A program made the translations under genes and the position numbers. 64,000 nucleotides of DNA from Streptomyces sp. NBC_01460. GTDB lineage: Bacteria > Actinomycetota > Actinomycetes > Streptomycetales > Streptomycetaceae. Location of the stretch: assembly GCF_036227405.1 (NCBI RefSeq), contig NZ_CP109473.1, positions 310,001 through 374,000 on the forward strand, given 5' to 3'. The notes beneath the pieces are model-generated. The model saw only the letters and a program-made list of their open reading frames with translations, was not told where the DNA came from and made no database searches. Below are positions 28,933 to 62,090 of this stretch, in pieces; the first letter of the stretch is position 1; the number at the start of each line of letters is the position of its first letter.

Positions 28933-30210
28933 ATGCCCGCTCCATCCCCCGGCGCCTCGTTCACGGACTGGCTCCGCGGACACGCCGTCCCGCTCGCCCA
29001 TCTGGACCCCGACGCGCCGCTCGACGACCTGGAACCCCTGCGCGACGTCATCGGGGATGCCCGCGTCGTCGCGATCGGCGAGCACTCCCACTTCATCGAG
29101 CAGTTCTCCCTCCTGCGCCGGCGCCTCCTGCGGTACCTCGTCGAACGCTGCGACTTCACCGTCCTGGGCTTCGAGTACGGCTTCAGCGAAGGGCTCCCTC
29201 TGGACTCCTGGGCCCGAGGAGAGGGATCGGACGACGACCTGGCGGCCCACCTCGCCGCAGCGGTCCCCGTGGGGATCTCAGAGCCCCTGCGGTGGATACG
29301 TCGGTACAACCGCACGGCGTCGTCCCCGGTACGCTTCGCCGGGATCGACATCCCCGCGGCAGGCGGTTCCCTGCTTCCCGCCCTGGAACCGGTCGCCGAC
29401 TATCTGCGCCGCGTCGACCCCGAGACCCTGCCGGCACTCGAGACCGCGATGCGGACGGCCTCCTCGTTCGCCGGTGGCTCGGCAGCCGTGGCCGCGCCCG
29501 CGTGGGCGCGCCTTCCCGCCGCCGACCAGGACGCCCTCACCGCGATCCTCTCCCGCCTGCTCGTCCGGTTCCGCGCCCTCGAACCGCTCTACGTCTCCCG
29601 CGGCGACCGGCGCGACTACGAGCTCGCCCTGCACCAGCTCGAAGGCGCCCTCCACGGCGACCACACCTTCCGCGCGATGGCCGGCCTGTTCGCCGGAGAC
29701 GGTCTCACCGCGGACACCTCGGCCCGGGACGTCTACATGGCCAGGTCGGTCCTCTGGCACCTGGAACGTCTCGCCCCCGGCACCCGCATCGTTCTCGCCG
29801 CCCACAACGCCCACATCCAGAAGACACCCATCGCCTTCGACGGCCACCTCACGGGACTCCCGATGGGACAGCACCTGGACAGGGCGCTCGGCGACGACTA
29901 CTTCGCGCTCGGCCTCACCAGCGTGGCCGGACACACCGCGGAGATGCGGCGCGACGAGAAGGCGCCCTTCGGCTTCACCCTCGCCGACACGGCGCTGGAG
30001 CCGCCCGAGAAGGGAAGCGTCGAAGCCGCCTTCGCCGACGCCGGTTCCGGGCTCGGCTTGGCCGATCTCCGCCGGGCGCGCACGGAGGTGTCCGACGGCC
30101 CCGACCGCATACGGCTGCAGAGCACCTACGTACGCACCCCGGTGCTCGACGCCTTCGACGGCGTCCTCACCACCCCCGCCTCCACGGTCACCGCGGATCT
30201 CGCCATCTGA
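28933..30210 (+). CDS. Erythromycin esterase family protein
   Basis: This 425-residue protein belongs to the erythromycin esterase (Ere) family. GEHSHF supplies E50 and H53, equivalent to the catalytic Glu/His pair of EreB. GFEYGFSEG carries a second conserved Glu (E81), and AAHNAHIQ carries the later conserved His. Ere enzymes open the macrolactone ring, but many actinobacterial homologues act on other esters. The ATG at 28933 lies 17 bases after the acetyltransferase stop; an upstream frame extension would overlap that gene. Together they look like a drug-modification cassette. Confidence 0.88.
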   Translation: MPAPSPGASFTDWLRGHAVPLAHLDPDAPLDDLEPLRDVIGDARVVAIGEHSHFIEQFSLLRRRLLRYLVERCDFTVLGFEYGFSEGLPLDSWARGEGSDDDLAAHLAAAVPVGISEPLRWIRRYNRTASSPVRFAGIDIPAAGGSLLPALEPVADYLRRVDPETLPALETAMRTASSFAGGSAAVAAPAWARLPAADQDALTAILSRLLVRFRALEPLYVSRGDRRDYELALHQLEGALHGDHTFRAMAGLFAGDGLTADTSARDVYMARSVLWHLERLAPGTRIVLAAHNAHIQKTPIAFDGHLTGLPMGQHLDRALGDDYFALGLTSVAGHTAEMRRDEKAPFGFTLADTALEPPEKGSVEAAFADAGSGLGLADLRRARTEVSDGPDRIRLQSTYVRTPVLDAFDGVLTTPASTVTADLAI

Positions 30211-47079: not shown

Positions 47080-47451
47080 ATGGCGAAGGCACCGAGATGC
47101 GGGCCGTACATCTGCGGCATCGACGCCGCGCTGGACGTGGTGAGCGGCAAGTGGAAGGGGCTGATCCTCTGGGAACTCGACGCCCACCGTGTACGGCGCT
47201 TCAGCGAACTCCGTCGCGGTCTGCCGGGAGTGAGCGAGAAGATGCTGACGCAGCACCTGCGTGAGATGGAGGCGGACGGTCTGGTGCACCGGACCGTCCA
47301 CGCCGAGGTGCCACCGCGCGTGGAGTACTCCCTGACCGAGCACGGGCGCACACTCAACAGCGCGCTCGAGCCCCTCGGGGTGTGGGGGACCGAGCGGATA
47401 CGCCGCGAGGGCCACGAAGCGGTCGACGTGGGCGGGACCGCGCACGGCTGA
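47080..47451 (+). CDS. HxlR-family transcriptional regulator
   Basis: This 123-residue winged-helix protein has the HxlR signature: CGIDAALDVVSGKWKGLILWEL, then RRFSELRRGLPGVSEKMLTQHLREMEADGLV as recognition region, and a wing ending YSLTEHGRTL. It carries cysteines C7 and C12 near the N-terminus, so redox or electrophile sensing is possible. It probably controls the divergent imine-reductase-like gene. The ATG at 47080 follows AAGGGGA. Confidence 0.9.
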   Translation: MAKAPRCGPYICGIDAALDVVSGKWKGLILWELDAHRVRRFSELRRGLPGVSEKMLTQHLREMEADGLVHRTVHAEVPPRVEYSLTEHGRTLNSALEPLGVWGTERIRREGHEAVDVGGTAHG

Positions 47452-47672
47452 GCTCGGCCGCCGACACGGTTCCCGTCAGGGTGTGCGCGCCAGGTGCGGG
47501 GCGGATTCCGCCGGGGGTTGTGCGGGCCGTGCGGCCAGGTGGACGGGCCCCGAACGCATTGTCACTGGTGGCGCCTAGAGTTTCTCCCACTCGTCACGGT
47601 GCGTCGCCGTCGACGGGTCTCATCGGCGTGCCGGCAGACCGGCGGCGTCACGGACAACGGGGAGAACAGCGC

Positions 47673-48533
47673 ATGGGGTGGGTTCCGGCGGGCGACTACG
47701 AAGTCGCTCTGGAAGCGGGCACGGTGGTGTGCCGCAACGGGAAGGGCCGGCGGTTGAAGTCCGTCCCGGCCAAGGTGAAGGACGACCCGGCGGTCGTGGG
47801 GCTCCGGCAACTGACCGAGTGGCTGGAGCGGCACGAACGCCGGTGCCTGGCCGACGTCGAGCAGTGGATGGTGCGTTCGCTGCCCGTTCCCACGGCCGTT
47901 CTCGCCCAGGTCTGGCCCGACCCTGCGTGGCAGGCCGCCCTGCGGGACGTGGTGGTGACCGGCACGGACGGCGGGGTAGCCGGCTTCCTGCGGGACGTCG
48001 ACCCCGCCCGCGGTCTCGGTCTGGTCGACCTGGACGGCGACACCGTCCGCATCACCCCGGACGTCGTCAGGGTGCCTCACCCCGTCCTCCTCGACGACCT
48101 GGACGACCTCCGGGAGTTCGCGGTCGAACTGGGTGTGCGCCAGAACGTGGAGCAGCTGTTCCGGGAGGTGTGGCACCGCCCGCCGGGCCTTGCCCCTGAC
48201 ACCACCTCCGTCGACACCTACGCCGGTGGCGTGTTCAAGGAACTGCGGTTCCTGCACGGCCGCGTCACCCAGCTCGGTTACCGGTCGCGTGGCGGGTACG
48301 CGGTCTGCCCGGTCGTCGAGGACGGCGTCACCGCCGAGGCCCGCATCTGGATCGGCGAGCACGACGGCTACGACGAGTACGGCACGGAGACGGGCTCCCT
48401 GGGCTGGACCGACCCCTCAGGGCGCGCTGTGACGGCTGCCGAGGTCGGACCTGTCACGTGGTCCGAGGGCATGCGCATGGCGGCGGCGCTCTACGCCGGT
48501 CGCGACGTGGCGGACGAGGAGCGGGCGGCATGA
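47673..48533 (+). CDS. DUF4132 domain protein, first gene of the MoxR-vWA operon
   Basis: This 286-residue protein carries the DUF4132 pattern: WVPAGDYEVALEAGTVVCRN at the start, GLRQLTEWLERHERRC, GFLRDVDPARGLGLVDLDGD, HPVLLDDLDDLREFAVELGVRQNVEQLFREVW, and a late GPVTWSEGMRMAAALYAGR. In Escherichia coli DUF4132 is in YehI, encoded beside MoxR- and vWA-type proteins, but there it is part of a much larger chain. The role is unknown. ATG at 47673 has GGGGAG upstream; TAGAGT at 47576-47581 is a possible -10 box. Its TGA stop overlaps the next ATG (ATGA, 48530-48533), so the two are translationally coupled. Confidence 0.85.
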   Translation: MGWVPAGDYEVALEAGTVVCRNGKGRRLKSVPAKVKDDPAVVGLRQLTEWLERHERRCLADVEQWMVRSLPVPTAVLAQVWPDPAWQAALRDVVVTGTDGGVAGFLRDVDPARGLGLVDLDGDTVRITPDVVRVPHPVLLDDLDDLREFAVELGVRQNVEQLFREVWHRPPGLAPDTTSVDTYAGGVFKELRFLHGRVTQLGYRSRGGYAVCPVVEDGVTAEARIWIGEHDGYDEYGTETGSLGWTDPSGRAVTAAEVGPVTWSEGMRMAAALYAGRDVADEERAA

Positions 48534-51500
48534 ACAACACCACGACGACGAACACCGGCGTGATCACGCCGCCGACCACGACGACAGCGAATTCGATGGC
48601 AGCGAACATGACAGCGTCGAGCACGACCGCATCCGACACGACGGCGTCGGACCATGTGTCCCTCCCCGCCCAGGCCGGAGGTGAGGGCACCTTCACCCCC
48701 GCCGCCGAGGCGCGCGCCGCGGCACTGCTGGATGCCGGTGCGATCCTCCCCGCCGGTTCCACCGAGCGGGACGACGCCGATGTGCTGACCGCCCGCACCT
48801 ACACGCACACCGCCCTCGGCGACCGCTCCGTGGTCCGGCTCGTGCCCGGCACACTCGGTGAAGCCGAGGATCTGGCCCTGGAGTTCCTCGGGCTGGCCCG
48901 GACCGCCGAGGCCCCCGTGGTGGGCCAGGTGCGCCGCGAGACGCTCGGCTTCCCGGCCTGGGCCCTGGTCAACGATCCGGCCAACGGGCACCACGCCCTG
49001 GCCCTGGTCAAGGACATCGAGCGGCTCGGCCGGCAGGCCAGGACCCGCGCCGGTGCGGCCAAGGAAGGCTTCGACGCACTCGGCACCCGGCTCGGCAGGG
49101 CCGTGCCCCACTTCCTGCCCACCTACTACGAGCAGGTGGCGCGCCTCTTCCTCCAGGCGGAGAACACCAGTTACGCCGCCTCCTTCTTCGGCAAGGCCCG
49201 CGAGGCCGAGCGGGTGCACGGCCTGGTCGTGGACGAGGACCGGCAGCGGGCCGTCTTCCTCGAGTTCGCCTTCGCGGGCGCGCTGACCGTCAAGGCGCTG
49301 CGGCAGTACGTGCGGGACCTGGTGGCCCGGCTCGCACCGGCGGACGCCTGGGCTCAGTTCCGCCGTCTGCTCGTCGAGCGCTGCGCCGCCGGCATGCCAC
49401 CGTACGCGGCACTGCCGCAGGACGTGCGCGCGCTGGTCAAGGCCGCCGGGCTGGACCGTGAGGCCGCCGAACGCGACCTGGTGGCCGATCTGGTCGGCTC
49501 CCCCGGAATCGTCCGCGCCCCCGCCTCGTTCTGGACGGCCTACCGCTCCGCGCTCGTCGCCCTCGCCCGGCGGGATGCGGCCGTACGGGCCCGGCTGCTC
49601 GGTTTCTTCCCGGAGACCTTCAGCGAGAGCGGGCGGGACACGGACGGTGAGAACGGATGGCTCGCGCTGCTGGCCGAATCCGGCGCCGAGGACCTGCTGA
49701 CCGCTCTCCCGGACACCTCCGGCTCCCCCGCCTCCGGTGACGTCTCCGTCTCCCCCGCGGACTGGCTCGCCCGCTGGGAGGCGCACCGCCGTCGCAACCG
49801 CGCGATCGCGGCGCGCAGCCCGCAGACCCTGGACCTGACCGGCCGGATGGCGGACCGGCTGCGCGCCGACGGGCGCCCCGTCGAGCTGTTCCAGGGGCGT
49901 TGGCAGCGCACCGCCGACCTGGACCTCCTCGACCTCTGCCTGGCGTCCGGCGTCCCGGTCGCCGAGCCGGACGCCCAGGACACGGGAAGCACGCAGCATC
50001 CTGGCGTCGCGCTCGGCCCGTGGCTCGGCGACACCGCGCCCGGAGCGCGCGATCTCACCGCTGTCGCCGACCGGCCGGTCTTCCGTGCCCTGCTGAGCCG
50101 GACCGTCGGCAGTCTCGGCGACGGACGCGGCCAGCGGCTGGGGGACATCGCCATGGCGAAGCTGGCGGCGCATCCGGTGCTCTCCGAGGTCCTGCGGGAG
50201 TGGCTGACGGCCTGCGCCGAGGAGTACACGGCCGCGCGAGGACTTCCGGGGCTGCGGACCGCCCTCAACAAGCTCTCGCTGTTCAGCGCCGTGGTCACCG
50301 AGGTCGCCCCGGAAGCGGTGCGGCTCCTCAAGGGCCATGACGTCGTCCCGCTGCTCGCCTCGACCCTGCGCACCGGTGTCCTCGACGAGTTGGGCTGGCC
50401 CGCGCTGGACGACACGTACACCGAGCTGGCCGCGGAGGCCGCCGCCACGCGGCAGCGGCGCAACCGGTCGGAGGGCGTCGGCGTGACCGGTGCCTGGCCC
50501 GCGCTGATCCTGAACACCCTCGAACGGGCCGTCGTCGTCGGCCCGGAGGGCGTTCTGCTGCAGCACACCCTGCGGCTGCCCGCCGGCATCGACCAGTGGC
50601 GGACGCCTGCCTTCCGTTACGTCGACGGCGAACTGCTGGTCATCTGGTGGGAGGACGGCAAGCAGCGCGGCTACTGGTCGCACCGCCCCGCCGAGGTGTT
50701 CACCGTGGGCGGGGAGCAGATCCCCCGCTGGGGCGGCTCCGGACCCTCGGACGAGGTCTGCCTGCCCCTGCCCGGCGGCGGCCGCGCCACAGGTGGCAAG
50801 GCCCTGCACGCGGGCGACACCACCCTTCCGCCGCAGCGCGCCGTCCTCTCCGACGGGACGGGTCTCTGGCGGGACGGTCACCAGGGCACGCAGCAGGTGT
50901 GGCTGGAGTACGACCCGGTCAGTGGCACGCACGGCCGCGCGTCCCTGCCCGCCTTCCTCCGCTCCGGCGTGCGGGACGGCACCCGGCTGCTCACCGAGCG
51001 CTGCCAGGTGCTGCCCCTCCAGCCCGGTCTGGAGACCACTCCGTTCGGCACGGACGGCACGGTTCTCGGCCGCTGGGTCCGCCGTACGGTCGCCGAGCCG
51101 GGCGTGGCTGCCCCGGCGGACGGGCACCGGGTCGTCGCGGGCACCCCCGACGGCCACACGGTGTCCCTGCCGCACCCGCTGCCCGGCGGCGGCTCCCCCG
51201 TGCCGCTCGGCGCCCTCACCCTCCCCGGCGGGTCTCGCCCCGTCATGGCCCTCGCCGGGTCTTTCGTCGAGGCCCGTCCGGCGGACACGGAGGGCATCGG
51301 CGGAGGCCTCTGGTCCGTCCGCCTCGACTCCTCCGGAGGAAACGACGCCGCGGGCACCCCCTATGTCCCTCCCGTCGCCTTCTGGCACGCCCTGCGCCCG
51401 AGGGACGAGCGGGGCTCCGCCGCCCTGCGCGACTTGACGGGCTCCCGCGCCGAGGAGTTGTTCAACGAGGTCGCCGCCGCGGTCGCCCGGCATGCGGAGG

Positions 51501-53776
51501 CGTTCCGGGCCGAGAAGGACTACAGCGGGCCCTCGTCGCGTGAGATGAGCGAGGAAGCCGTCGCCCGGGTGCTGCCCGAGGTGTCCGACGCGCGGCTTCT
51601 CGCGGGCGTCACCGGTCTCGTCCGCAATGCGGTGGACAGGGCCGTCGCGGCCGCCCGCTACCTGGAGCCACCGCGGCCCGTCGTCCCTCGGAGCACCGCT
51701 CGTACCCAGGGCATGTTCTTCGACCGCTCCCCCGAGCACGGCGACGACACGACGCTGCTGCACGCCACCGCCTGGGGCACCGAGCGGATGCACGGCGGCT
51801 GGTGGGGAGGCGGGAGCCGATGGACCGTGATCCAGCAGATGCTCGCCGTCAACCACGTCCTCGGCGGTGAGCCGGCGTTCGGCCCGCCGGTGCAGTCCAA
51901 GGTCCCGTTCGTGGCCGTGGACGGCTGGCAGCGGGACGAGTGCACCGTCCCAGGTCAGTCCGCGGACTGGACCACCCTGCTCGACAAGCTGCCCGAACTG
52001 GCCTACCGGGCCGCCTCGGCGACCACCTCGCCCGAACACCGAGCCGGCCTCCTTGTCCTCCTCGACACGCTCGGTGCGGGCCCGTTGGCGGACCCGGCGG
52101 GCACGGTCCGGCACGTGACGCTCGTCGAGCCGCACGTCCCCGCGACGCCCCAGCAGCACCGCTCCGAGGCCGTGCACCGCCTCGGACAGGTGTTCCGCAA
52201 GGGCGCCCGCACCGTCGTGGTCCTCGCCGAGCGCGGCCGGAACTTCCGGGACGACTCGGCACGCTGGCTGGCCCTGGACCACGACCCCACCGGCGCCTTC
52301 GGCCCCGTCGCGGGTTTCGCCCTGGACCACGAGCACGTCCACCGGCAGGGCATCGCCCGGGACCGGCTCTCCCGGCTCACCACCCTGGTACGGGAGGAGG
52401 GACCGGCAGCCTGGCATCCCGAGGCGGCCGAGGCCTTCCACACGGCCACCGGGATCGGCCCCCTCCAGTCGGCAGCCCTGGTGTCGGCCGCCGTCCACGA
52501 GCCGGGCGCAGAGGCGCTGGGGCTGCTCGGGGCGAAGACCCGTGCCTTCGAGGCGGCACAGGCCAGGCTGGACGCTCTGCCCCACGCCGACCGACACGCC
52601 CTGCTCCAGGCACTGCTCCCCGCCGACCCGGCCGAGCTCTGGTCCACGGGCCCGGACGTCCTGGCCGCTGCCGAGGTCTGGCAGGCCCGCCTCGCCTCCC
52701 TGGTCCGCGTCCCGGAGGAGCTGGACCTCGACCTGTCGGGCACCACCCCCGGCGCCGTCGACCTGATCCTCAACTCGGACTCCCGGACATGGCTGGGCCA
52801 GGGCTCCCCCGTCGAGGACGGCACCGGCCGGCCGGGCCTGCGCCGGGTGAGCACGTACGGCTCGCTCTCCTCCGCCCTGACCGCGCTGCGGACCCTCGCC
52901 TACACGCTGCCGTACGGGCACCCCCTGCGGGCACACCTGCCCGTCGGGCTCGCGGCACTGCGCCGCACCCTCGCCGACCCGGACCTGGTGCTGGACCTCG
53001 GGCTGGACTGGACGGAGGACGGCAGCTCGATCGGCCCCGTCGTACGATCCGCCCACCAGCTTCCCGAGTCCGGCGGCGCCGGGCCCGACGGCCTGGTCCG
53101 GGCCGGTGCGGCACTGCTCCTCGCAGCGGGCCACGGCACCCAGGAGAAGCTGCTGGTCCGCCCGGCCGGTCTGGAAGGCCCCGAGGATCCGGCGTTCGGG
53201 CTGGCCGAGGGCATCGTCGCGCAGTACCGGGCAGGTGAACTCCGCGCCCTGCGGACCCTGCTGGGCAAGGAGGCCGACGCCCTGGTCTCGGCGGGCGCCC
53301 CCGACGGCACCCCGCACCACCCGGGCCAGGACCCGTCGCGCGCGGTGCCGGACCTGGTGTCCGAGGCCGCCGGGGCCCTCGGGCTGAGCGCCGACTCAGC
53401 AGCCCTGTACCTGATGCTGCTCGCCCTGCCCGACCCGACGGACCGCAACTGCGTCCGCTGGAGCGAGTGGAAGCCCGCACGGATCAAGAAGGCCCGGACG
53501 GAGCTCGCCGCCACGGATCTCGTGGTCGAGGCCAAGCGCTCCCGCGCCGGCCGCACCCTGTTCCTCCCCTGCGGCTGGCTGGAGCGTGGCGCCCCCGGCC
53601 TGCCGCTCGAGACCTGGAAGGAACGGCTGTACCCCGTGGAAGGGTCCGCCCGGACCCTTCCGGACGTCCCTGTGCCCGATCTGTTCGCCGCAGCCTGGGC
53701 ACGGGTCCGGGGTGGCGACGCCCCTGCCTTCGAAGAACTGGACACCCGCGCACCCCGGAAGGGCCGCCGCCGATGA
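48530..53776 (+). CDS. Giant protein of unknown function in the MoxR-vWA operon
   Basis: This 1748-residue protein is not one I recognise by domain. It begins with a threonine/serine/asparagine-rich disordered tail (about 45 residues), continues with an alpha-helical region (about 45-480, repeated VARLF, REAERVHG and LVKAAGLDREAAERD segments), then a beta-rich middle (about 660-960) with GLWRDGHQGTQQVWLEY. The C-terminal half is helical and ends in a very basic tail (RAPRKGRRR). No transmembrane segment or clear catalytic motif is visible. Start and stop overlap the neighbours as ATGA on both sides. It is probably a large scaffold or effector handled by the MoxR ATPase; similarity to long DUF4132-linked proteins should be tested. 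Confidence 0.75.
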   Translation: MNNTTTTNTGVITPPTTTTANSMAANMTASSTTASDTTASDHVSLPAQAGGEGTFTPAAEARAAALLDAGAILPAGSTERDDADVLTARTYTHTALGDRSVVRLVPGTLGEAEDLALEFLGLARTAEAPVVGQVRRETLGFPAWALVNDPANGHHALALVKDIERLGRQARTRAGAAKEGFDALGTRLGRAVPHFLPTYYEQVARLFLQAENTSYAASFFGKAREAERVHGLVVDEDRQRAVFLEFAFAGALTVKALRQYVRDLVARLAPADAWAQFRRLLVERCAAGMPPYAALPQDVRALVKAAGLDREAAERDLVADLVGSPGIVRAPASFWTAYRSALVALARRDAAVRARLLGFFPETFSESGRDTDGENGWLALLAESGAEDLLTALPDTSGSPASGDVSVSPADWLARWEAHRRRNRAIAARSPQTLDLTGRMADRLRADGRPVELFQGRWQRTADLDLLDLCLASGVPVAEPDAQDTGSTQHPGVALGPWLGDTAPGARDLTAVADRPVFRALLSRTVGSLGDGRGQRLGDIAMAKLAAHPVLSEVLREWLTACAEEYTAARGLPGLRTALNKLSLFSAVVTEVAPEAVRLLKGHDVVPLLASTLRTGVLDELGWPALDDTYTELAAEAAATRQRRNRSEGVGVTGAWPALILNTLERAVVVGPEGVLLQHTLRLPAGIDQWRTPAFRYVDGELLVIWWEDGKQRGYWSHRPAEVFTVGGEQIPRWGGSGPSDEVCLPLPGGGRATGGKALHAGDTTLPPQRAVLSDGTGLWRDGHQGTQQVWLEYDPVSGTHGRASLPAFLRSGVRDGTRLLTERCQVLPLQPGLETTPFGTDGTVLGRWVRRTVAEPGVAAPADGHRVVAGTPDGHTVSLPHPLPGGGSPVPLGALTLPGGSRPVMALAGSFVEARPADTEGIGGGLWSVRLDSSGGNDAAGTPYVPPVAFWHALRPRDERGSAALRDLTGSRAEELFNEVAAAVARHAEAFRAEKDYSGPSSREMSEEAVARVLPEVSDARLLAGVTGLVRNAVDRAVAAARYLEPPRPVVPRSTARTQGMFFDRSPEHGDDTTLLHATAWGTERMHGGWWGGGSRWTVIQQMLAVNHVLGGEPAFGPPVQSKVPFVAVDGWQRDECTVPGQSADWTTLLDKLPELAYRAASATTSPEHRAGLLVLLDTLGAGPLADPAGTVRHVTLVEPHVPATPQQHRSEAVHRLGQVFRKGARTVVVLAERGRNFRDDSARWLALDHDPTGAFGPVAGFALDHEHVHRQGIARDRLSRLTTLVREEGPAAWHPEAAEAFHTATGIGPLQSAALVSAAVHEPGAEALGLLGAKTRAFEAAQARLDALPHADRHALLQALLPADPAELWSTGPDVLAAAEVWQARLASLVRVPEELDLDLSGTTPGAVDLILNSDSRTWLGQGSPVEDGTGRPGLRRVSTYGSLSSALTALRTLAYTLPYGHPLRAHLPVGLAALRRTLADPDLVLDLGLDWTEDGSSIGPVVRSAHQLPESGGAGPDGLVRAGAALLLAAGHGTQEKLLVRPAGLEGPEDPAFGLAEGIVAQYRAGELRALRTLLGKEADALVSAGAPDGTPHHPGQDPSRAVPDLVSEAAGALGLSADSAALYLMLLALPDPTDRNCVRWSEWKPARIKKARTELAATDLVVEAKRSRAGRTLFLPCGWLERGAPGLPLETWKERLYPVEGSARTLPDVPVPDLFAAAWARVRGGDAPAFEELDTRAPRKGRRR

Positions 53777-55008
53777 CGAGCGACACGACGACCACCACCA
53801 GCAGCGCCCCCACGGGCGGGGTCCCGGATCGGGCGACGCCCGCCGTCGGTGCCACCGGGAGGCAGAACCGCCAGGTCACCCTGCCCGAGGACCGGTACGC
53901 CACCGAGCTGGCCTTCCTCTCCGCCCACGACTCGGGGCCGCGCCCTCCCGGCTGGCTGCTGACCCCGCGCGCCGTCGTGACCTTCGTGATGGGCAGTGCG
54001 GGCGAGGCGCTCGGCCTGCCGAAGTCCGCCCGGCCCGGCACCGGGGTGCCGCGCCGCCTGGTGATCGAGCAGAAGTTCGTCGGCGAACGCGCCCTGGTCG
54101 AACGGTGCGTGGTCACCCTCGCCGGGGAGCGCGGACTGCTGCTGGTGGGCGAGCCCGGCACCGCGAAGTCCATGCTCTCCGAGCTCCTGTCCGCGGCCGT
54201 CTGCGGAACCAGCGCGCTGACCGTCCAGGGCACCGCGGGCACCACCGAGGACCAGCTCAAGTACGGCTGGAACTACGCGCTGCTGCTCGCCCAGGGCCCG
54301 ACCGAGCAGGCCCTGGTGCCGTCCCCGGTGCTCACCGCCATGACCCGGGGCGCCGTCGCCCGCGTCGAGGAGGTCACCCGGTGCCTGCCGGAGGTCCAGG
54401 ACGCGCTCGTGTCGCTGCTCTCCGAGCGGCGGATCGCGGTGCCCGAACTCGCGGGCGGCGAGGGCTCCCAGGTGCACGCCGCCCCGGGGTTCACCCTCAT
54501 CGCCACCGCCAACCTGCGCGACAGGGGCGTCTCGGAGATGTCCGCGGCGCTGAAGCGGCGCTTCAACTTCGAGACGGTGAGCCCGATCGGGGACGTGGAC
54601 GCCGAGACGGCGCTCGTACGGAGCCAGTCGCGGGCGGCCGTGGAGCGGGCGGGAGCCGCCTACCAGGTGGACGACGCGGTCCTCGAAGCCCTCGTCACCG
54701 CTTTTCGGGACTTGCGGGAGGGCCGTTCCGTGGAGGGCTGGGAGGTCGAACGTCCCTCCACGGTGATGAGCACGGCGGAGGCGGTCTCCGTCGCGGGAGC
54801 CCTGGGCCTGGCCACCGCCTACTTCCCCGGCGACCGGGACGTGCTCTCCCTCCTGCCCGGCCATCTGCTCGGCGTCGTACGCAAGGACGACCCCGCCGAC
54901 GCGGCACGGCTGCTGGGGTACTGGGACGGGCCGGTGCGCCGGCGCGCGGAGCAGGGGTCGGCCACCTGGCGTGCCCTGTGGGAGCTTCGCTCGGTGCTGG
55001 AGAGCTGA
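53773..55008 (+). CDS. MoxR-type AAA ATPase
   Basis: This 411-residue AAA ATPase has a Thr/Ser-rich tail of about 35 residues, Walker A GEPGTAKS (126-133), a Walker B equivalent RVEEV (197-201) with Glu-Glu in place of Asp-Glu, the helix PEVQDALVSLLSERR, sensor 1 Asn247 in ATANLRD, and an arginine finger region LKRRF (260-264). It resembles the YehL branch. MoxR ATPases remodel complexes and usually work with a vWA protein, which is encoded next. The ATG overlaps the preceding TGA by four bases; the next gene starts three bases after its stop. Confidence 0.9.
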   Translation: MTSDTTTTTSSAPTGGVPDRATPAVGATGRQNRQVTLPEDRYATELAFLSAHDSGPRPPGWLLTPRAVVTFVMGSAGEALGLPKSARPGTGVPRRLVIEQKFVGERALVERCVVTLAGERGLLLVGEPGTAKSMLSELLSAAVCGTSALTVQGTAGTTEDQLKYGWNYALLLAQGPTEQALVPSPVLTAMTRGAVARVEEVTRCLPEVQDALVSLLSERRIAVPELAGGEGSQVHAAPGFTLIATANLRDRGVSEMSAALKRRFNFETVSPIGDVDAETALVRSQSRAAVERAGAAYQVDDAVLEALVTAFRDLREGRSVEGWEVERPSTVMSTAEAVSVAGALGLATAYFPGDRDVLSLLPGHLLGVVRKDDPADAARLLGYWDGPVRRRAEQGSATWRALWELRSVLES

Positions 55009-55011
55009 CCG

Positions 55012-58000
55012 ATGAGCCAGTCGACCACCAGGGACATGGGGGCCACCACAGGGGTGCCGCCCCTCGCCGAGGCGCCGCCCCTCGCTGATTCGCCGCACGG
55101 AACCGGTGCGTCACGCGCCGGTGCACCGCAGGGCGCCACGGCTGGGCCTGCGATGCGGGAGGCCGGGCCCGTCACCCCGGAGGACGCGGTGGCGGCCCTC
55201 GCGGCGGCCGGACCCGGGCTGCCGTTCCTGATCGGGGTGCGCCACCATGCGCCCTCGCTCGCGGCCGCCCTCCCTGCGCTCCTCGACGAGGCAGCCCCCG
55301 ACGTCCTCCTCGTCGAGCTGCCGGCCGAGTTCCAGCCCTGGCTGGGCTGGCTCGCCCACGAGGAGACCGAAGCTCCGGTGGCGCTGGCCGCCGTGACCGC
55401 CGACGGGGCGTCGGCGGGAGGCGAACGAGGGCCCGCCTTCTATCCGTTCGCGGACTTCTCGCCCGAACTGGTCGCCCTGCGCTGGGCGGCACGGAACGGG
55501 GTGCCTGCCGTGGCCTGCGATCTACCGCTGGCCGACCGGGCCTGGGCATGGGGCGGGCCGGACGCTCCCGCCCCCGCACTCCTCCCGGGCTCCGGCTCCG
55601 CGCCCGCAGGAGAAGGGGGACACGGACTGTCCGCCGCCCTCCGGTCCCGGCTGACCGGCCGCGAGGGCGACGACCTGTGGGACCGGCTGGTGGAGGCCCC
55701 CGCACCCGGCTCGACGCCCGAGGCACTCCGTCGTGCCGCCCTCCTCACCGGCTGGGCGCTGCGGTACGAGGCCGAGGCACGGGGCGGTGTGGACGGCACG
55801 GACCTGGTGCGCGAGGCCTGCATGCGTAGGCATGTCGCCGAGGCACTGGCGAGCGGGCAGCGGCCGGCCGTGGTGGTGGGGGCCTTCCACACCCCGGCCC
55901 TGCTGCCGGCCGCCCCCGGCGCCGCCGACCCGTCCGCCCCGTCCGCCCCGCGCGAACCGGGCACATCCGCCCCGCGCGAGCCGGGCACGGACGGCCGGGT
56001 GAGCGGCGCCGCTTCGACGGAGGCGTGCACCGTCTCCCTGATCCCGTACACATATCCACTCCTCGACTCACGGTCCGGATACCCGGCGGGCATCCGGGAC
56101 CCGGAGTGGCAGCACACCGTCCTGGAGGCCGCCGGCTCCCCGGCCGCGCTGCACGAGGCGCTGATCCGCACCGCGGTCCGGGTCTGCGCGGCCCTGCGTG
56201 AACAGGGCCACCCCTACGGCCCGGCGGACGGCCGGGAGGTCGTCCGGGTCGCCGGGGACCTGGCGCGTCTGCGCGAACTGCCCGCCCCGGGCCGCGGCGA
56301 ACTCCTGGAGGCCGTGCAGACGGTGCTCGGGCGGGGCGAGACCTACGGCACGGGCCGCGCCGTTGCCCAGGCCCTCGAACGGGTCCTCGTCGGATCCCGC
56401 ACCGGACGGCCCGCTCCCGCTGCTCCGCGCAGCGGCCTGGGCCCGGCCGTGGAGGCCGACACGGCGGCGCTCTCGCTCCCCGGTCCGGCGGACGCGCACG
56501 AGAAGACGCCGCGTGACCTCCGTCTCGACCCTGCCCGCTCCACGCTCGACGCACGTCGCGAACTGCTGCTGCGCAGGCTGACGGTGTGCGGTATCCCCTA
56601 CGCCCGGGAACAGGAGGTGACGGGTGCCGCGGGCTCGGAAGGACTGACGACCCGCTGGCAGGTGCGGTGGACCCCGGCGACCGCCGCGATGCTCACCGCG
56701 GCCGGAGCCCGCGGCGTCACCCCGGCCCAGGCAGCCGAAGGGGTGCTGCGGCAGCGGCACGCGGCCGAACGTGCGGAAGGCGGCCCCACGGCCGCCCAGG
56801 TCGTACGAGGCCTCACGGAAGCCGCCGAGTGCGGACTCCCCGCCCTGGCCGACGAACGGCTCACGGAACTGACGGCGGTGCTCCCCTCGAGCGGGACGCT
56901 TCCCGAGATCCTCACCGGGCTCGGCCTCCTCGAACGCATCGACGCGGGCCACCTGGCGGGCCTGACATCTCCCGAATCCACCCCCGAAGCCCCCGAAGCC
57001 CCGGAAGCACCGGAAGCACCCGGTGCTGCTGACGCCCTGTCAGCTCCCGGGACCACCGGACGTCCGCACGCCACCGCCACCGTGACTGCCGGGGCCTCCG
57101 GCCGTACCGCCCGCATCGCCGACGCGGCGGAGCTCCTGACCTCGGCGGCGGTTCGTCAGGTCGACGGCCTGACCGGATCGGAGGAGCCCGAGGACGCCCG
57201 CGCCCTGCTCGAACTGGCTCAGCGCGCCGACCGGGTGGGCGGTATCCGGCTCACCGACGCCCTCGTCCGGCTGGCAGCCGACGGCACCCCGCTGATCGCC
57301 GCCGCCGCCGGGGCCGTCCGGGTGCTCACGGGCCACGAGGAGGCCGAGGCCTTCGGGGTGCGCGTCGCCTCCTGGGTGGACGGGGCTGTGGACGCCGCCT
57401 CGCGGACGGCGCTCACCGCCCGCCTCACCGGCGTACTGACGGCGGCGGGCCCGCTCCTGACCGTCGGAGTCGCCGCCCTGGACCCGTTGCTGCACCGTGT
57501 CGTCAAGCTGGACGACGCTGGTTTCCTGGCCCGGCTGCCCGCCCTGAGAGGCGGCTTCGACACCCTCAGCCCCGCCGCCCGGGACCGGCTGCTGGACACG
57601 GTCGAGGAGAGACTGGGCGAACAGGTGGACGGCCTCGACGCCGACGACCCTGCCGAGCTGGCGGCCCGGACGGCCGCCGACCTCGCGGCCCGCGAACTCC
57701 TGACCGGCCTCGGCCTGCCCGTACCGTCCCCCACCCACGACGACCGGTTCCCGCAACAGCCGGACCACCTCACCGGGCCGCCGCTGCCCGCCACCGGAGC
57801 CGGCTCCGGAGCCGGCTCCGCGGAGTCCGTCACCGGCACAACTCCCACCGTGCCGGCCATGTCCGCAGCGCCCGACGCGGTCGTCCCCGCACGAACCCTT
57901 GCGCCCGCCGACCGGTGGCGGCTCGTCCTCGGGCGACGTCCCGATCAACTGCCGTCCGGTGCCGCCCGACTGGCGACCGCTCTGGACGAGCTGTACGGAG

Positions 58001-58995
58001 CGGGACGCGGCGAGGGATCCCGCGGCGGCATGCCCGGCCGGGGCGGCGGCCGCGAGGCATCGTTCCCCGGCGTCCGCGAGTGGTCCGAGGAGCTGGCCGC
58101 GCTCTTCGGCCCCGGGGTCCGCGAGGAGGTCCTCGCCGCCGCGGCTGCGACCGGCCGGCAGGACGTCCTCGCCGAGATCGACCCGGCCGCGGCAACTCCC
58201 TCCGTGGAACTGCTCCGTACGGTCCTGCGGTACGCCGGCGGCCTCCCCGAGGCGCGGCTGGCGGCACTCAGGCCGCTGGTCCGCCGCCTGGTCGACGAAC
58301 TGACCCGGCAGCTCGCCACCCGGTTGCGGCCCGCCCTCACGGGCACGATGCTGGCCCGGCCCACCCGCCGCCCCGGAGGCCGGCTGGACCTGCCGCGCAC
58401 GCTGCGCGCCAATCTGGCCACCGCCCGCCGGACGGCCGACGGAACGGTCCAGGTGATCCCTGAGAAGCCGGTCTTCCGCAGCCGCGCCCGCCGGTCGGCC
58501 GACTGGCGCCTGATCCTGGTCACCGACGTCTCCGGATCCATGGAGGCGTCCACGATCTGGTCGGCGCTGACCGCCTCCGTGCTGGCCGGGGTGCCGACTC
58601 TGAGCACTCATTTCCTCGCCTTCTCCACGGAGGTCGTCGACCTCACCGGCCATGTGCACGATCCCCTCTCCCTCCTGCTGGAGGTGAGTGTGGGCGGCGG
58701 CACGCACATCGCCGCGGGGCTGCGGCACGCGCGCAGCCTGATCACGGTGCCCAGCCGCACCCTCGTCGTCGTCATCAGCGACTTCGAGGAGGGCGCTCCG
58801 CTCGGCGGGCTGCTCGCCGAGGTGCGGGCCCTGGTGGCCACCGGCAGCCACGTCCTCGGGTGCGCGAGTCTCGACGACGCGGGCCGGCCCCGCTACTCGA
58901 CGGGCGTCGCCGGCCAGCTCGTGACCGCAGGTATGCCGGTGGCAGCACTCAGCCCACTCGAACTGGCCCGCTGGATAGGGGAGAAGACCACATGA
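55012..58995 (+). CDS. DUF5682 - vWA fusion protein
   Basis: This 1327-residue protein joins an N-terminal DUF5682 region (from about residue 50; GVRHHAPSLAAAL with H78/H79, DVLLVELPAEFQPWL, FYPFADFSPELVALRWA) to a C-terminal von Willebrand A domain (about 1165-1327). The vWA has an intact MIDAS: DVSGS (D1172), T1231 in GGGTHIA and D1257 in ISDFEEG. Proline/alanine/glutamate-rich linkers lie near 640-670 and 910-950. In Escherichia coli these two parts are separate proteins, YehM and YehP. The vWA should bind Mg and partner with the MoxR ATPase. Its stop overlaps the SWIM gene start as ATGA. Confidence 0.88.
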   Translation: MSQSTTRDMGATTGVPPLAEAPPLADSPHGTGASRAGAPQGATAGPAMREAGPVTPEDAVAALAAAGPGLPFLIGVRHHAPSLAAALPALLDEAAPDVLLVELPAEFQPWLGWLAHEETEAPVALAAVTADGASAGGERGPAFYPFADFSPELVALRWAARNGVPAVACDLPLADRAWAWGGPDAPAPALLPGSGSAPAGEGGHGLSAALRSRLTGREGDDLWDRLVEAPAPGSTPEALRRAALLTGWALRYEAEARGGVDGTDLVREACMRRHVAEALASGQRPAVVVGAFHTPALLPAAPGAADPSAPSAPREPGTSAPREPGTDGRVSGAASTEACTVSLIPYTYPLLDSRSGYPAGIRDPEWQHTVLEAAGSPAALHEALIRTAVRVCAALREQGHPYGPADGREVVRVAGDLARLRELPAPGRGELLEAVQTVLGRGETYGTGRAVAQALERVLVGSRTGRPAPAAPRSGLGPAVEADTAALSLPGPADAHEKTPRDLRLDPARSTLDARRELLLRRLTVCGIPYAREQEVTGAAGSEGLTTRWQVRWTPATAAMLTAAGARGVTPAQAAEGVLRQRHAAERAEGGPTAAQVVRGLTEAAECGLPALADERLTELTAVLPSSGTLPEILTGLGLLERIDAGHLAGLTSPESTPEAPEAPEAPEAPGAADALSAPGTTGRPHATATVTAGASGRTARIADAAELLTSAAVRQVDGLTGSEEPEDARALLELAQRADRVGGIRLTDALVRLAADGTPLIAAAAGAVRVLTGHEEAEAFGVRVASWVDGAVDAASRTALTARLTGVLTAAGPLLTVGVAALDPLLHRVVKLDDAGFLARLPALRGGFDTLSPAARDRLLDTVEERLGEQVDGLDADDPAELAARTAADLAARELLTGLGLPVPSPTHDDRFPQQPDHLTGPPLPATGAGSGAGSAESVTGTTPTVPAMSAAPDAVVPARTLAPADRWRLVLGRRPDQLPSGAARLATALDELYGAGRGEGSRGGMPGRGGGREASFPGVREWSEELAALFGPGVREEVLAAAAATGRQDVLAEIDPAAATPSVELLRTVLRYAGGLPEARLAALRPLVRRLVDELTRQLATRLRPALTGTMLARPTRRPGGRLDLPRTLRANLATARRTADGTVQVIPEKPVFRSRARRSADWRLILVTDVSGSMEASTIWSALTASVLAGVPTLSTHFLAFSTEVVDLTGHVHDPLSLLLEVSVGGGTHIAAGLRHARSLITVPSRTLVVVISDFEEGAPLGGLLAEVRALVATGSHVLGCASLDDAGRPRYSTGVAGQLVTAGMPVAALSPLELARWIGEKTT

Positions 58996-60854
58996 CCGCC
59001 GCCCAGTTGCCGGCCGTCGCGCCGGAGGTCACGGCCACCCTGGTGGAAGACCTCTCGCCCCGGCTGCGCAAGCGGCTGGACGCGGCGGTCACCAAACTCG
59101 CCGCCCGCCCGGTGCACCGGGACGGGGACACCGTGACGATCGCCGTAGACGACGAGACCGATCTGCGCCTGCACGCCCCGGGCGGTGTGGTGGCGACGGC
59201 GGACGCCATCACCTGTGGCTGTCTCCTCTCGCCGGCGTGTGTCCACCGGGCGGCTGCCGCCTGCGCCGCACCCGCGGCGGACCCGCCCGCCGAGGCCGCC
59301 GGGCAACCAGAGGCGACGGCAACCGAATCCGCACCGCATCCCGACAACGCACCCCACGACCACGCACCGCATCCTGACCACGCACCGCACCACGTCACCA
59401 CCGACACCGGCACCGACGCGGCACCCGATGTGGCGAGCCCGGCGCAGTGCGCCGCGGCCGAGGCCCTGCGGTCGGCGGCCGCCGCCGTGCTGGAAGCCGG
59501 CGTCGACGGCGCCGGCGCCGTCGCCCAAGCGGCACTCCTCCGCGCCGCGCACACCGCCCGGCTCCAGCACCTGCCGCGCGCCGCGGGCGCCGCGCTGTCC
59601 GTCGTCACACTGCTGCGCGCGGCCCGCGCCGGGGACCCGTCCTACCGCACCGCCGACCTCGTCACGGCCCTGGCCGAACTCCTGGGAACGGCGCACCGGC
59701 TGGGCAGCGCCTCCGGGGACGAGCTGGACGCCGTCAAGGGCAGGGCACGCCGCCCGTACAGCCCGGACGGCTCGTTGCGGCTGTACGGACTGTTCACGGA
59801 GCCCGTGGTCACCGCCTCGGGGCACGGCGGCGCCCGTACCTGGGTCGTCGGACCCGACGGCCGGCTCTGCACGGTCGGCGACGTGGCGCCCGGAGGAGTC
59901 GGGCGCGCCCTGGGCGTGGCCGACCGGGCCGTGCGCCTCGGGGAGAGCGCGCTCACCCACCGGGAGCTGGGCCGGGCCGGCCTGGCGGTCTCGGGTGCGA
60001 CGGTCTCGCCGGACGGAAGACTCGGTGCGGGGAAGGGCGTCAAGGCAGTCACCGCCCGGGGCACGGCATGGACGGAGCCGCCGCTCGCCGCCCTGTGGGA
60101 GACACCGCCGTTCCAGCAGGCCACCCGGGCCCTGCGGTCCGTCTCCCGGTACGCGGACCCGGACGGCGGCGGCAGCGATCTGCTCTTCCTCGACGTCGAC
60201 CTGCACGGCACCGTACGGGAGCCGGGCGGCACCTGTCTGCTCGCGTGGTGCGACGGTGGCGTCGCCGTCCGGCTCACGGTCGCCGACGACGATCCCGCGC
60301 TGGCCCACCGGGACAACCTGATGCTGCTGGCCTCGGCACCGGGGACCCGTCTGCGGATCATCGGCCGCCTCGTACCGGCGCTCCACCCGAGGCTCGCCCT
60401 CCTCGCCTGCTCGCACCCCACCGGTGAGGGCACGATCGATCTGGGCTTCGACCGGCTGCGCCGCGCGGACCTGCCCGTCCCGGACGCCCGCGTGGAACCC
60501 GTCCGGCACGAGCCCGTCGATTCCGGCGCAGGATCGCCCCTGCATCTCCTGGAGCGCCGGGTCGAGCAGACGGTGACCGCGGGCCGCGCCGCCCTCGGCC
60601 TGCTCGGCGACGTCTCCGCCGGGACCCGACGCCTCCGCCGCGCGGGCCTTCCCACGGCCGCCGGCCTTCTTGCCGTCCTGCGTGCCTCGGCGGCCCGACG
60701 GGAACGCGACCCCTTCGGCCGCCTCCTCCCCGCCGACACCGACGGCTTCGCCACCCACTGGCTCGCCGCCGCCCGCTACACATCCGCTGTATCCGAGTCG
60801 CTGTGCGCGGCAGCCTGGGAACCTGCGCAGGGAGGTACGACCAGGTCGCGGTAG
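58992..60854 (+). CDS. SWIM zinc-finger protein closing the operon
   Basis: This 620-residue protein has an N-terminal SWIM zinc finger with ligands C75, C77, C83 and H85 (CxCx5CxH). A Pro/Ala then His/Asp/Pro-rich segment (about 95-145, with APHPDHAPHH) follows. The remaining 450 residues (about 150-620) are a mixed alpha/beta region of unknown function. SWIM fingers bind DNA or protein, and E. coli YehQ, in the related cluster, also has one. The ATG at 58992 overlaps the previous stop. A hairpin at 60942-60963 likely ends the operon. Confidence 0.85.
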   Translation: MTAAQLPAVAPEVTATLVEDLSPRLRKRLDAAVTKLAARPVHRDGDTVTIAVDDETDLRLHAPGGVVATADAITCGCLLSPACVHRAAAACAAPAADPPAEAAGQPEATATESAPHPDNAPHDHAPHPDHAPHHVTTDTGTDAAPDVASPAQCAAAEALRSAAAAVLEAGVDGAGAVAQAALLRAAHTARLQHLPRAAGAALSVVTLLRAARAGDPSYRTADLVTALAELLGTAHRLGSASGDELDAVKGRARRPYSPDGSLRLYGLFTEPVVTASGHGGARTWVVGPDGRLCTVGDVAPGGVGRALGVADRAVRLGESALTHRELGRAGLAVSGATVSPDGRLGAGKGVKAVTARGTAWTEPPLAALWETPPFQQATRALRSVSRYADPDGGGSDLLFLDVDLHGTVREPGGTCLLAWCDGGVAVRLTVADDDPALAHRDNLMLLASAPGTRLRIIGRLVPALHPRLALLACSHPTGEGTIDLGFDRLRRADLPVPDARVEPVRHEPVDSGAGSPLHLLERRVEQTVTAGRAALGLLGDVSAGTRRLRRAGLPTAAGLLAVLRASAARRERDPFGRLLPADTDGFATHWLAAARYTSAVSESLCAAAWEPAQGGTTRSR

Positions 60855-61016: not shown

Positions 61017-62090
61017 TCAGTGGCGGGGAGCCGGATACGACGTGGGCAGAGGCATTCCCCGGGCGGCCATGATGTCCCGCACGCGGTCGGGGTAGTCGGT
61101 GATGATGCCGTCGATCCCCATGTCCATGAGTGCCTCGACGGTGGCGGGGTCGTCACAGGTCCAGGGGATGACCTTCAGGCCACGCCGGTGTGCGTCACGG
61201 ATCATCCGGGTGTCGGGGTAGAACCGGAATCCGGGGTCCGCGACCGTACCGTTCTGCGGGAATCCGTAGTTCGGGGACAGCGCGGTCACCCCGGGGATCG
61301 AAGCGGCGGCCCTGACGAAGTCACCGTCGTAGTCGTCGGCGTCGATCCCTCCGAGCCAGGGGGACGCTCCGTCCTTCCCCACCTGAAGGAAGTCGTAGTT
61401 GGTCAGCGCCACCAGGGGGTAGGACGGCGCGAGCCGGTGCATCTCCTTCAGCGCCCCCCAGTCGAAGGACTGGACGGACACCTGCTTCTCGACGCCGGAC
61501 CGGTGGATCTCCTCGTGGACGCGTCGTACGAACAGCTTCCGCGGAGCGGTCTGCTCGGGTGCCCCGGCCTCCACCTTCGTCTCGATGTTCAGCTTGACGC
61601 GCTTGGCGCGGTAGCTCTTCACCAGGTCGAGTACGTCCCTGAGCTCGACCATGCGGAAGCCCTTGATCTGCTCCTGCTCCGGATGGCCGGGAAGCTGCTG
61701 GTAGCCGCAGTCCATGCTCTTGATCTGGGCGAGGGTCAGGTCCTTGATGTACTTGCCGACGTACGGGTACATCGGGTCGCCGGGCGTCAGCGGACCGGTG
61801 TCCTGGCACTTCTGGGCGCTGACCTGCCGGTCGTGGTTCACGACCACACGGCGGTCCTTGGTGATCTGGGTGTCCAGCTCCAGCGTGCTGACGCCCAGGC
61901 GTATCGCCTTGCCGAAGCCCTCGAGGGACTCCTCCGTGGTCAGCCCGAGGCCTCCTCGGTGGGCCTGCAGGTCGAACGCGGACCGAGGGGCCGGCTCGTG
62001 CTCGCGGGGAGCTCCGGCCGCCTGCGCGGTCGCCGGGAGAGCGAGGGCGGGAAGCAGGGCCAGGGCGGCGGCTGTGTGCCTCAGGGACAT
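61017..62090 (-). CDS. Secreted glycerophosphodiester phosphodiesterase
   Basis: This 357-residue protein has a signal peptide (MSLRHTAAALALLPALALP, cleavage near AQA) and a GDPD TIM-barrel. Catalytic and metal motifs are QAHRGG, ELDTQITKDRRVVVNHD and a later KLNIETK strand. It hydrolyses glycerophosphodiesters to glycerol-3-phosphate and an alcohol, probably to scavenge phosphorus outside the cell. ATG at 62090 has GAGG six bases upstream. It converges with the SWIM gene and is divergent from the RNA phosphodiesterase gene. Confidence 0.9.
   Translation of the reverse strand: MSLRHTAAALALLPALALPATAQAAGAPREHEPAPRSAFDLQAHRGGLGLTTEESLEGFGKAIRLGVSTLELDTQITKDRRVVVNHDRQVSAQKCQDTGPLTPGDPMYPYVGKYIKDLTLAQIKSMDCGYQQLPGHPEQEQIKGFRMVELRDVLDLVKSYRAKRVKLNIETKVEAGAPEQTAPRKLFVRRVHEEIHRSGVEKQVSVQSFDWGALKEMHRLAPSYPLVALTNYDFLQVGKDGASPWLGGIDADDYDGDFVRAAASIPGVTALSPNYGFPQNGTVADPGFRFYPDTRMIRDAHRRGLKVIPWTCDDPATVEALMDMGIDGIITDYPDRVRDIMAARGMPLPTSYPAPRH

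Follow-up and report, generated by a model that had tools for sequence, protein, structure and literature searches.

A mobile five-gene yeh relative in Streptomyces that may encode a DNA-damage-induced AAA+ remodeling/hydrolase machine

Introduction

The yehI-yehL-yehM-yehP-yehQ operon of Escherichia coli (NC_000913) encodes a DUF4132 protein, followed by homologs of MoxR, DUF5682, CoxE-type von Willebrand factor A (vWA) and SWIM proteins. Here we describe a relative with the same order in Streptomyces sp. NBC_01460, a co-directional plus-strand operon of five genes (G1 to G5) at 47673-60854 of a 64,000-nucleotide stretch of contig NZ_CP109473.1 (positions 310,001 to 374,000 of the forward strand; the window below means this whole stretch). 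The two layouts differ, however, in two respects. YehI is a 1210-residue protein with a C-terminal DUF4132, whereas the Streptomyces operon has a short DUF4132 protein (G1) and an unrelated protein of 1748 residues (G2), and YehM and YehP, which are separate in E. coli, are fused in G4.

Other described relatives share less with the operon. DUF5691-MoxR-DUF5682-vWA loci, several of which have a SWIM-motif gene, contain the same MoxR, DUF5682 and vWA core, and one of them (L034) has damage-type motifs in its divergent promoter region, but DUF5691 replaces DUF4132 and G2, the DUF5682 and vWA genes are separate, and in L034 the genes for the SWIM homolog and DUF5691 are divergent. NorQD and RavA-ViaA likewise combine a MoxR protein with a vWA cofactor, and they are not known to have TraB-like, DUF4132 or SWIM partners. 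The ternary conflict systems built on MoxR and vWA (Kaur et al. 2020, PMC7159879) also have a MoxR and vWA core with more components, including a beta-propeller in one class. In that class, propeller and vWA belong to one fusion protein, whereas here the fusion partner of the vWA domain is DUF5682 and the propeller-like part is in G2. G3 scored 21.8 bits against the bpMoxR model, under the cut-off of 27, and no Pfam match to VMAP, inactive STAND or FtsH as a third component was obtained in G1, G2, G4 and G5 at an E value of ≤0.1, a search that distant versions could escape.

We propose, with a probability of roughly 55%, that this mobile yeh relative is a DNA-damage-induced AAA+ remodeling/hydrolase machine. 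MoxR-vWA remodeling is a known kind of activity; the TraB-like partner, the G1-G2 arm and the damage promoter are new here. DUF5682 was named in no paper found (most subscription papers and bioRxiv preprints lie outside the coverage), and the available text of papers naming DUF4132 gave no tested role for it. Among the matches listed for MoxR, vWA, SWIM, TraB, DUF5682, PafBC and the yeh names, the available text held no description of this system.

Gene content and relation to the yeh operon

The five genes are tightly packed, as the preliminary description had it, with ATGA overlaps at 48530, 53773 and 58992 and a 3-base gap between G3 and G4 (55009-55011). Pfam supported the expected DUF4132, DUF5682 and vWA domains, the latter two on the single open reading frame (ORF) of G4 (DUF5682, E value of 1.9e-199; VWA_CoxE, E value of 1.3e-63), whereas G5 matched no Pfam model, that of SWIM included, and owes its assignment to a motif and to YehQ homology. 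The additional protein of 1748 residues was also confirmed, and it belongs to no known family, with no Pfam, NCBIfam or PADLOC match above the cut-off. Indeed, NCBIfam gave no match above the cut-off for any of the five proteins, and PADLOC models gave none to G1-G5 at an E value of ≤0.1.

In BLAST against E. coli proteins, G3 shared 46% identity with YehL, and for G4 the identity was 28% with YehM and 38% with YehP, whereas G1, G2 and G5 showed no significant relation. Using hhalign, we found that G1 matched the YehI profile (probability of 98.0, E value of 2.2e-13) over template columns 213-483 of 485, and that G5 matched the YehQ profile (probability of 97.8, E value of 1.3e-12) over 347 columns. 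A relation of G2 to YehI, YehQ or DUF5691 was rejected, as profile-profile comparison gave at most 2.8%. By these comparisons, G1 is the counterpart of the C-terminal part of YehI only, and G1 and G2 together occupy the place of YehI in the yeh layout. Thus, the gene-by-gene correspondence with yeh first proposed for the operon holds for G3/YehL, G4/YehM plus YehP, G1/YehI and G5/YehQ, but G1 covers only the YehI C terminus, YehM and YehP are fused, and G2 is unrelated.

The G4-type fusion was present in nearly all complete loci read, one locus (L171) having two ORFs instead. In YehI-type loci, two or more YehI-labeled ORFs precede the core in L099, L100, L104, L105, L107, L109, L112, L122, L126 and others, which may be compared with yehH plus yehI in E. 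coli.

A DNA-damage promoter motif

The operon is preceded by a motif of the LexA/RecA-independent (PafBC-type) DNA-damage promoter, for which the published consensus is tTGTCRgtg-8 nt-TannnT (PMC5656591). A TTGTCAGTG-N8-TACAGT sequence was conserved in the bases upstream of G1. Within 300 bases upstream of G1, the motif was found exactly in 28 of 50 loci, with at most one mismatch in 41 and with at most two in 47, these loci being related to one another and not independent; it was located at about -60, -100 to -112 or -113 to -115 relative to G1 and was missing before G1 in L062, L179 and the planctomycete locus L150. Among 80 named DUF5682 loci, scanned on the plus strand near labeled genes, the motif with at most one mismatch occurred in 13 of the 32 actinobacterial loci (in one, L145, inside a coding domain) versus none of the 48 others, and the reversed pattern in none of the 80. 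Besides, of 32 short loci surrounding DUF5682 matches, 22 had a near or exact motif, which was also observed in the divergent region of a second DUF5682 locus of the host genome, which carries an exact motif one way and a one-mismatch motif the opposite way.

Genome-wide, the exact motif has 17 sites in 8.8 Mb (L254-L270), and the reversed pattern has none. Eight of these sites stand before repair-type genes according to NCBIfam and Pfam, namely, recA, uvrB, a UvrA-like gene, two uracil-DNA glycosylase genes (ung), and genes for a methylguanine methyltransferase-family protein, an Exo_endo_phos protein and a RecD2-HHH protein. One site (L265, by position) precedes the SWIM homolog of the second DUF5682 locus; other sites precede genes for PhoH, a sigma factor, an ATP-binding cassette (ABC) permease, an FKBP-type isomerase and a tetratricopeptide repeat (TPR) protein, and at three sites (L256, L260 and L268) the downstream ORF had no match. 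These downstream ORFs were chosen by a simple base-composition rule, with no gene finder.

An SOS-like GAAC..GTTC sequence was found upstream of G1 in only 2 of the 50 loci. LexA-type control outside actinobacteria was considered and is unsupported, as a scan of 482 kb gave one exact CTGT-N8-ACAG core, and no operon gene lies closer to it than about 6 kb. PafBC homologs are encoded by Streptomyces (PMC9380542), and a DUF4132 protein of Deinococcus radiodurans, a member of the DdrO/IrrE regulon, is reported to increase upon exposure to mitomycin C (PMC8533742). Taken as a motif assignment, the link between the operon and a PafBC-type damage promoter is well supported.

A TraB/PrgY/TIKI-like domain in G4

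Two GX2H motifs, a Glu and an Arg (H78/H79, E102, R267 and H293) follow one another in the N-terminal domain of G4, in the layout of the TraB superfamily, which is present in the aligned TraB rows. In an alignment of 79 sequences, which covers 78 of the 80 named loci (L131 and L136 were left out), the positions of H79, E102, R267 and H293 were invariant and that of H78 nearly so. Profile-profile comparison of this domain with six TraB/PrgY-type sequences gave a probability of 96.7 (E value of 4.1e-10, 201 columns), and that with 20 mixed sequences gave 94.7. The domain is, by these residues and profiles, of the TraB/PrgY/TIKI type and hydrolase-like. It shares with the superfamily (PF01963 and relatives) the order GX2H...E...R..M...GX2H and, by model, may share the fold, but the Pfam TraB model misses G4, in which the domain is on one chain with a helical region and with the vWA domain. 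It may cut peptides, carry out another hydrolysis or merely bind. As a TraB comparison set, 45 of 120 listed sequences were rejected (0.3%), because they represent a degenerate GumN subgroup that lacks the first GX2H; the TraB/PrgY set was informative instead.

Foldseek alone returned nothing at an E value of ≤0.001 for the G4 or G2 model, and only the VIA re-check was informative. The TIKI structures of PMC6254334 were absent among the 50 structural matches listed for the 906-residue model, in which the helical part fills most rows, so that this absence excludes nothing. At the other end of G4, we take DVSGSM, GGGTH and [IV]SDF to be motifs of the metal ion-dependent adhesion site (MIDAS) type. 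Elsewhere in the window (29140-30174, plus strand), an ORF matches the erythromycin esterase (Ere) family PF05139 (E value of 2e-47), which has been compared with TIKI proteins (PMC6254334); this is probably coincidence.

Distribution and conservation

A G1 match was found in 42 of 101 genomes of the genus and was strong (E value of ≤1e-20) in 38, which hold 40 strong places, the window included and five weaker matches dropped. All parts of the operon were found at 34 of these places, 3 were cut by contig ends, and 3 had G1-G2 without the core; all parts means profile matches, with order and strand judged by eye. Besides the window, 39 loci were read: 33 with all parts, 3 contig-cut (L175, L180 and L181) and 3 orphans (L063, L080 and L081), of which L063, a G1-G2 orphan, is a weaker G1 match read all the same. 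One gene seems split, partial or partly inverted in 4 of the 34 (L164, L171, L172 and L184). L195 has a complete operon and a second strong place with a G1-G2 fragment. In loci with a second DUF5682 copy, G1 to G5 stood in order in 14 of 14, including L040, for which the stretch read is cut within G1. The five genes thus co-occur regularly in other genomes, where rarity would have spoken against the preliminary description.

The surroundings mostly differ: when 15 loci were compared pairwise, a common 3' flank was seen in 2 of 105 pairs, and a common 5' flank, for which the length available was in most cases 0.5 to 2.5 kb, in 9 of 91. Since the same gene order recurs in mostly different surroundings, the arrangement is not due to chance, and the differing flanks imply cassette-like behavior.

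At a wider scale, 144 of 147 genomes sampled from the order contain DUF5682, as do 22 of 346 genomes of a phylum sample. The N-terminal domain of G2 was detected in 7 of these 346, and in each of the 7 a match to DUF5682 is no more than about 10 kb away. A metagenome-assembled genome (MAG) of Planctomycetota (L150) has G1-G2-MoxR-DUF5682/vWA with G5 divergent, and G2 homologs carry the names Rhodopirellula, Stieleria and a gammaproteobacterial MAG. The 80 named DUF5682 loci, the best kept from a longer list and no census, comprise 40 of the YehI plus YehQ type with the whole core, 22 of the DUF5691 type with the core, 1 of the G2 type and 17 partial or other loci, several of the last on short contigs.

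The host genome has two DUF5682 loci, the window operon and that at C1:5093934. The latter (C1:5092434-5097638; L002 and L034) has genes for a SWIM homolog and DUF5691 divergent from separate MoxR, DUF5682 and vWA genes. The match of its SWIM homolog to a relative is confined to the C-terminal part of the latter, and a search of the ORFs of over 200 residues at this locus gave no CxC..CxH motif. A further, more divergent DUF5682 class with the order vWA-MoxR-DUF5682 was seen in L067, L068 and L069, with damage-type motifs in L067 and L068.

Other proteins and coordinates of features

G2 has 1465 homologs at an E value of ≤0.001 among 7987 scored candidates. Its N-terminal domain gave a weak HEAT_Nup120 match (E value of 0.0077, below the cut-off), and its sequence suggests a helical-repeat nature. 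G2 models as a propeller with a winged-helix-like C terminus, and some homologs bear the automatic name "DNA-binding protein." G1-like and G2-like parts lie on one open frame in L063 and L081, suggesting that the two act together. A sequence search of solved structures gave none for G2, a best E value of 0.32 for DUF4132 and only Rhobin9 (E value of 0.053) for DUF5682; G3 had seven matches, among them NorQ. The motifs GEPGTAKS, TANLRD and RRF of G3 were kept in 15 of 15 rows. CxC-xn-CxH is the layout of the SWIM motif, and the SWIM label of G5 holds by its motif together with YehQ homology. One close G2 homolog (P0055) is filed under Mesorhizobium sp. B2-3-3 amid Streptomyces matches, possibly from a contaminated assembly.

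Table 1. Window positions of the operon genes, the upstream motif and protein parts
Feature	Position	Strand	Remarks
PafBC-type (LexA/RecA-independent) motif	47559-47581	+	TTGTCACTG-N8-TAGAGT; 91 bases before G1 start codon; one mismatch to consensus
G1	47673-48533	+	286 aa; DUF4132; Pfam PF13569, E 1.4e-28
G2	48530-53776	+	1748 aa; unnamed family
G2 conserved N-terminal domain, residues about 60-400	48707-49729	+	Among best conserved G2 stretches over 15 rows
G2 beta-propeller-like part, residues about 614-970	50369-51439	+	Predicted structure
G2 C-terminal winged-helix-like part, residues about 1607-1678	53348-53563	+	Model: helices then beta hairpin, high predicted local distance difference test (pLDDT) score
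G3	53773-55008	+	411 aa; MoxR AAA+ ATPase; Pfam AAA_5, E 4.4e-37
G4	55012-58995	+	1327 aa; DUF5682-vWA fusion (YehM+YehP)
G4 TraB/PrgY/TIKI-like domain, residues about 58-307	55183-55932	+	GVRHH (75-79), E102, R267, GAFH (290-293)
G4 DUF5682 helical part, residues about 308-899	55933-57708	+	AlphaFold2 model; helical-repeat proteins among structural matches
G4 vWA domain, Pfam VWA_CoxE residues 1101-1322	58312-58977	+	DVSGSM, GGGTH and [IV]SDF kept in 15/15 rows
G5	58992-60854	+	620 aa; YehQ-like/SWIM relative
G5 SWIM-type motif	59214-59246	+	CGCLLSPACVH (CxC-x5-CxH), kept in 15/15 aligned rows

The operon is flanked on its 5' side by a gene whose product resembles, by eye, an HxlR-type regulator (47080-47451, plus strand) and on its 3' side by one whose product resembles, by eye, a glycerophosphodiester phosphodiesterase (about 61017-62089, minus strand).

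Discussion

The proposal of a damage-induced AAA+ remodeling/hydrolase machine is supported by gene content, conserved order, the homologies, the conserved active-site-like residues and the promoter motif; from these we infer induction, complex formation, catalysis and the target. DNA damage would switch the operon on via the PafBC-type promoter, alongside recA, uvrB and other repair genes. G3 would assemble into an ATPase ring, for which the vWA domain at the end of G4 would capture substrates via its metal site, while the TraB/TIKI-like domain on the same chain would act as a hydrolase, probably a peptidase, to which the ring gates access. G1 and G2 may constitute a targeting arm that replaces YehI, in which the G2 propeller would serve as a scaffold, its winged-helix-like part would contact DNA and G1 would add a DUF4132 module, and G5 would bring a zinc-binding SWIM module. 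The machine might thereby strip or process proteins on damaged DNA. Some YehI proteins carry WGR-like parts (yehF-profile matches), and YehF has a WGR domain; these parts, the G2 winged helix and the SWIM motif would fit work at DNA.

Several observations weigh against this proposal. The site in the window has its mismatch in a consensus base, a feature common to most of the closest relatives, with the site being exact in one (L167). In 24 loci, most of them proteobacterial and one of them that of E. coli, the operon was not preceded by an exact CTGT-N8-ACAG core, in a search blind to weaker or alphaproteobacterial boxes. PafBC is not the sole candidate regulator, because ClgR has also been cited as a regulator of this promoter (PMC5656591), and, according to the available text of a 2022 study, an initial search found the PafBC motif of Mycobacterium smegmatis not to be conserved in Streptomyces venezuelae (PMC9380542). 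As for catalysis, DUF5682 scored 6.1% against 14 GumN-type sequences alone and 3.7% against Ere (31 columns, at the R..M motif), and TraB-superfamily domains need not be enzymes, as exemplified by PMT, which lacks the catalytic motif (PMC6254334). Besides, the G2 propeller comes from a model with a middling Z score (6.6).

An unlikely but serious alternative is a damage-triggered conflict system, abortive or antiphage, in which MoxR-vWA frees a latent TraB/TIKI-type hydrolase against cell or phage targets upon sensing DNA damage or phage DNA. The patchy presence of G1 in the genus (42 of 101 genomes, 38 strong), the mostly different flanks and the occurrence in Planctomycetota would fit such a role, which has been proposed for MoxR-vWA ternary systems (PMC7159879). 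However, DUF5682 is near-universal in the order, unlike a typical defense gene, and the vWA domain ends G4, whereas in the published systems an effector domain comes after it. The hint of a conflict system in the preliminary description obtained no direct support, since PADLOC matched none of the five proteins and the promoter points to a DNA-damage regulon instead.

We regard as quite improbable a maturation factor of the NorQD/CoxDE type, in which MoxR-vWA would remodel the TraB-like domain or another client for metal loading, with the SWIM and DUF4132 proteins as assembly aids. The vWA domain falls in the CoxE family of Pfam, NorQ is among the structural matches of G3, and NorQD is reported to drive metal insertion (PMC13036017), but most flank comparisons revealed no common neighbor gene, and a DNA-damage promoter would be unexpected for this role. 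A very improbable alternative is that the motif belongs to strong vegetative promoters in general and that the operon encodes a constitutive chaperone of unspecified client. The -10 half (TAnnnT) is indeed unremarkable, and some of the sites stand before genes that have no obvious connection to repair (such as that for PhoH). However, the 9-base upstream half is specific, as the genome-wide counts against the reversed pattern, the eight repair-type genes and the restriction to actinobacteria among the named loci indicate.

Beyond the damage-induced machine proposed for this operon, DUF5682 operons across bacteria, including E. coli yehLMPQ, might all encode TraB/TIKI-type peptidases that are gated by an AAA+ ring, work on proteins at damaged DNA and form a single class, so far unrecognized. 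Their targeting subunits would be interchangeable: YehI (with DUF4132 and in some cases WGR), DUF5691, or DUF4132 together with the giant propeller/winged-helix protein G2. In actinobacteria, the class would belong to the PafBC regulon. This wider proposal is tentative, and we would sooner bet against it than for it. If true, it would also show that the PafBC-type response is used by Streptomyces. In any case, the motif set shared with recA, uvrB and ung reopens the question of such a response in this genus, which PMC9380542, in its available text, left unsettled. DUF5682 occurs in nearly all genomes of the order and has an operon relative in E. coli K-12, and the TraB/TIKI identity, with its candidate catalytic residues, makes its role testable. 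With a damage-promoter motif in Streptomyces and a relative in E. coli, the question can be tested in two laboratory organisms.

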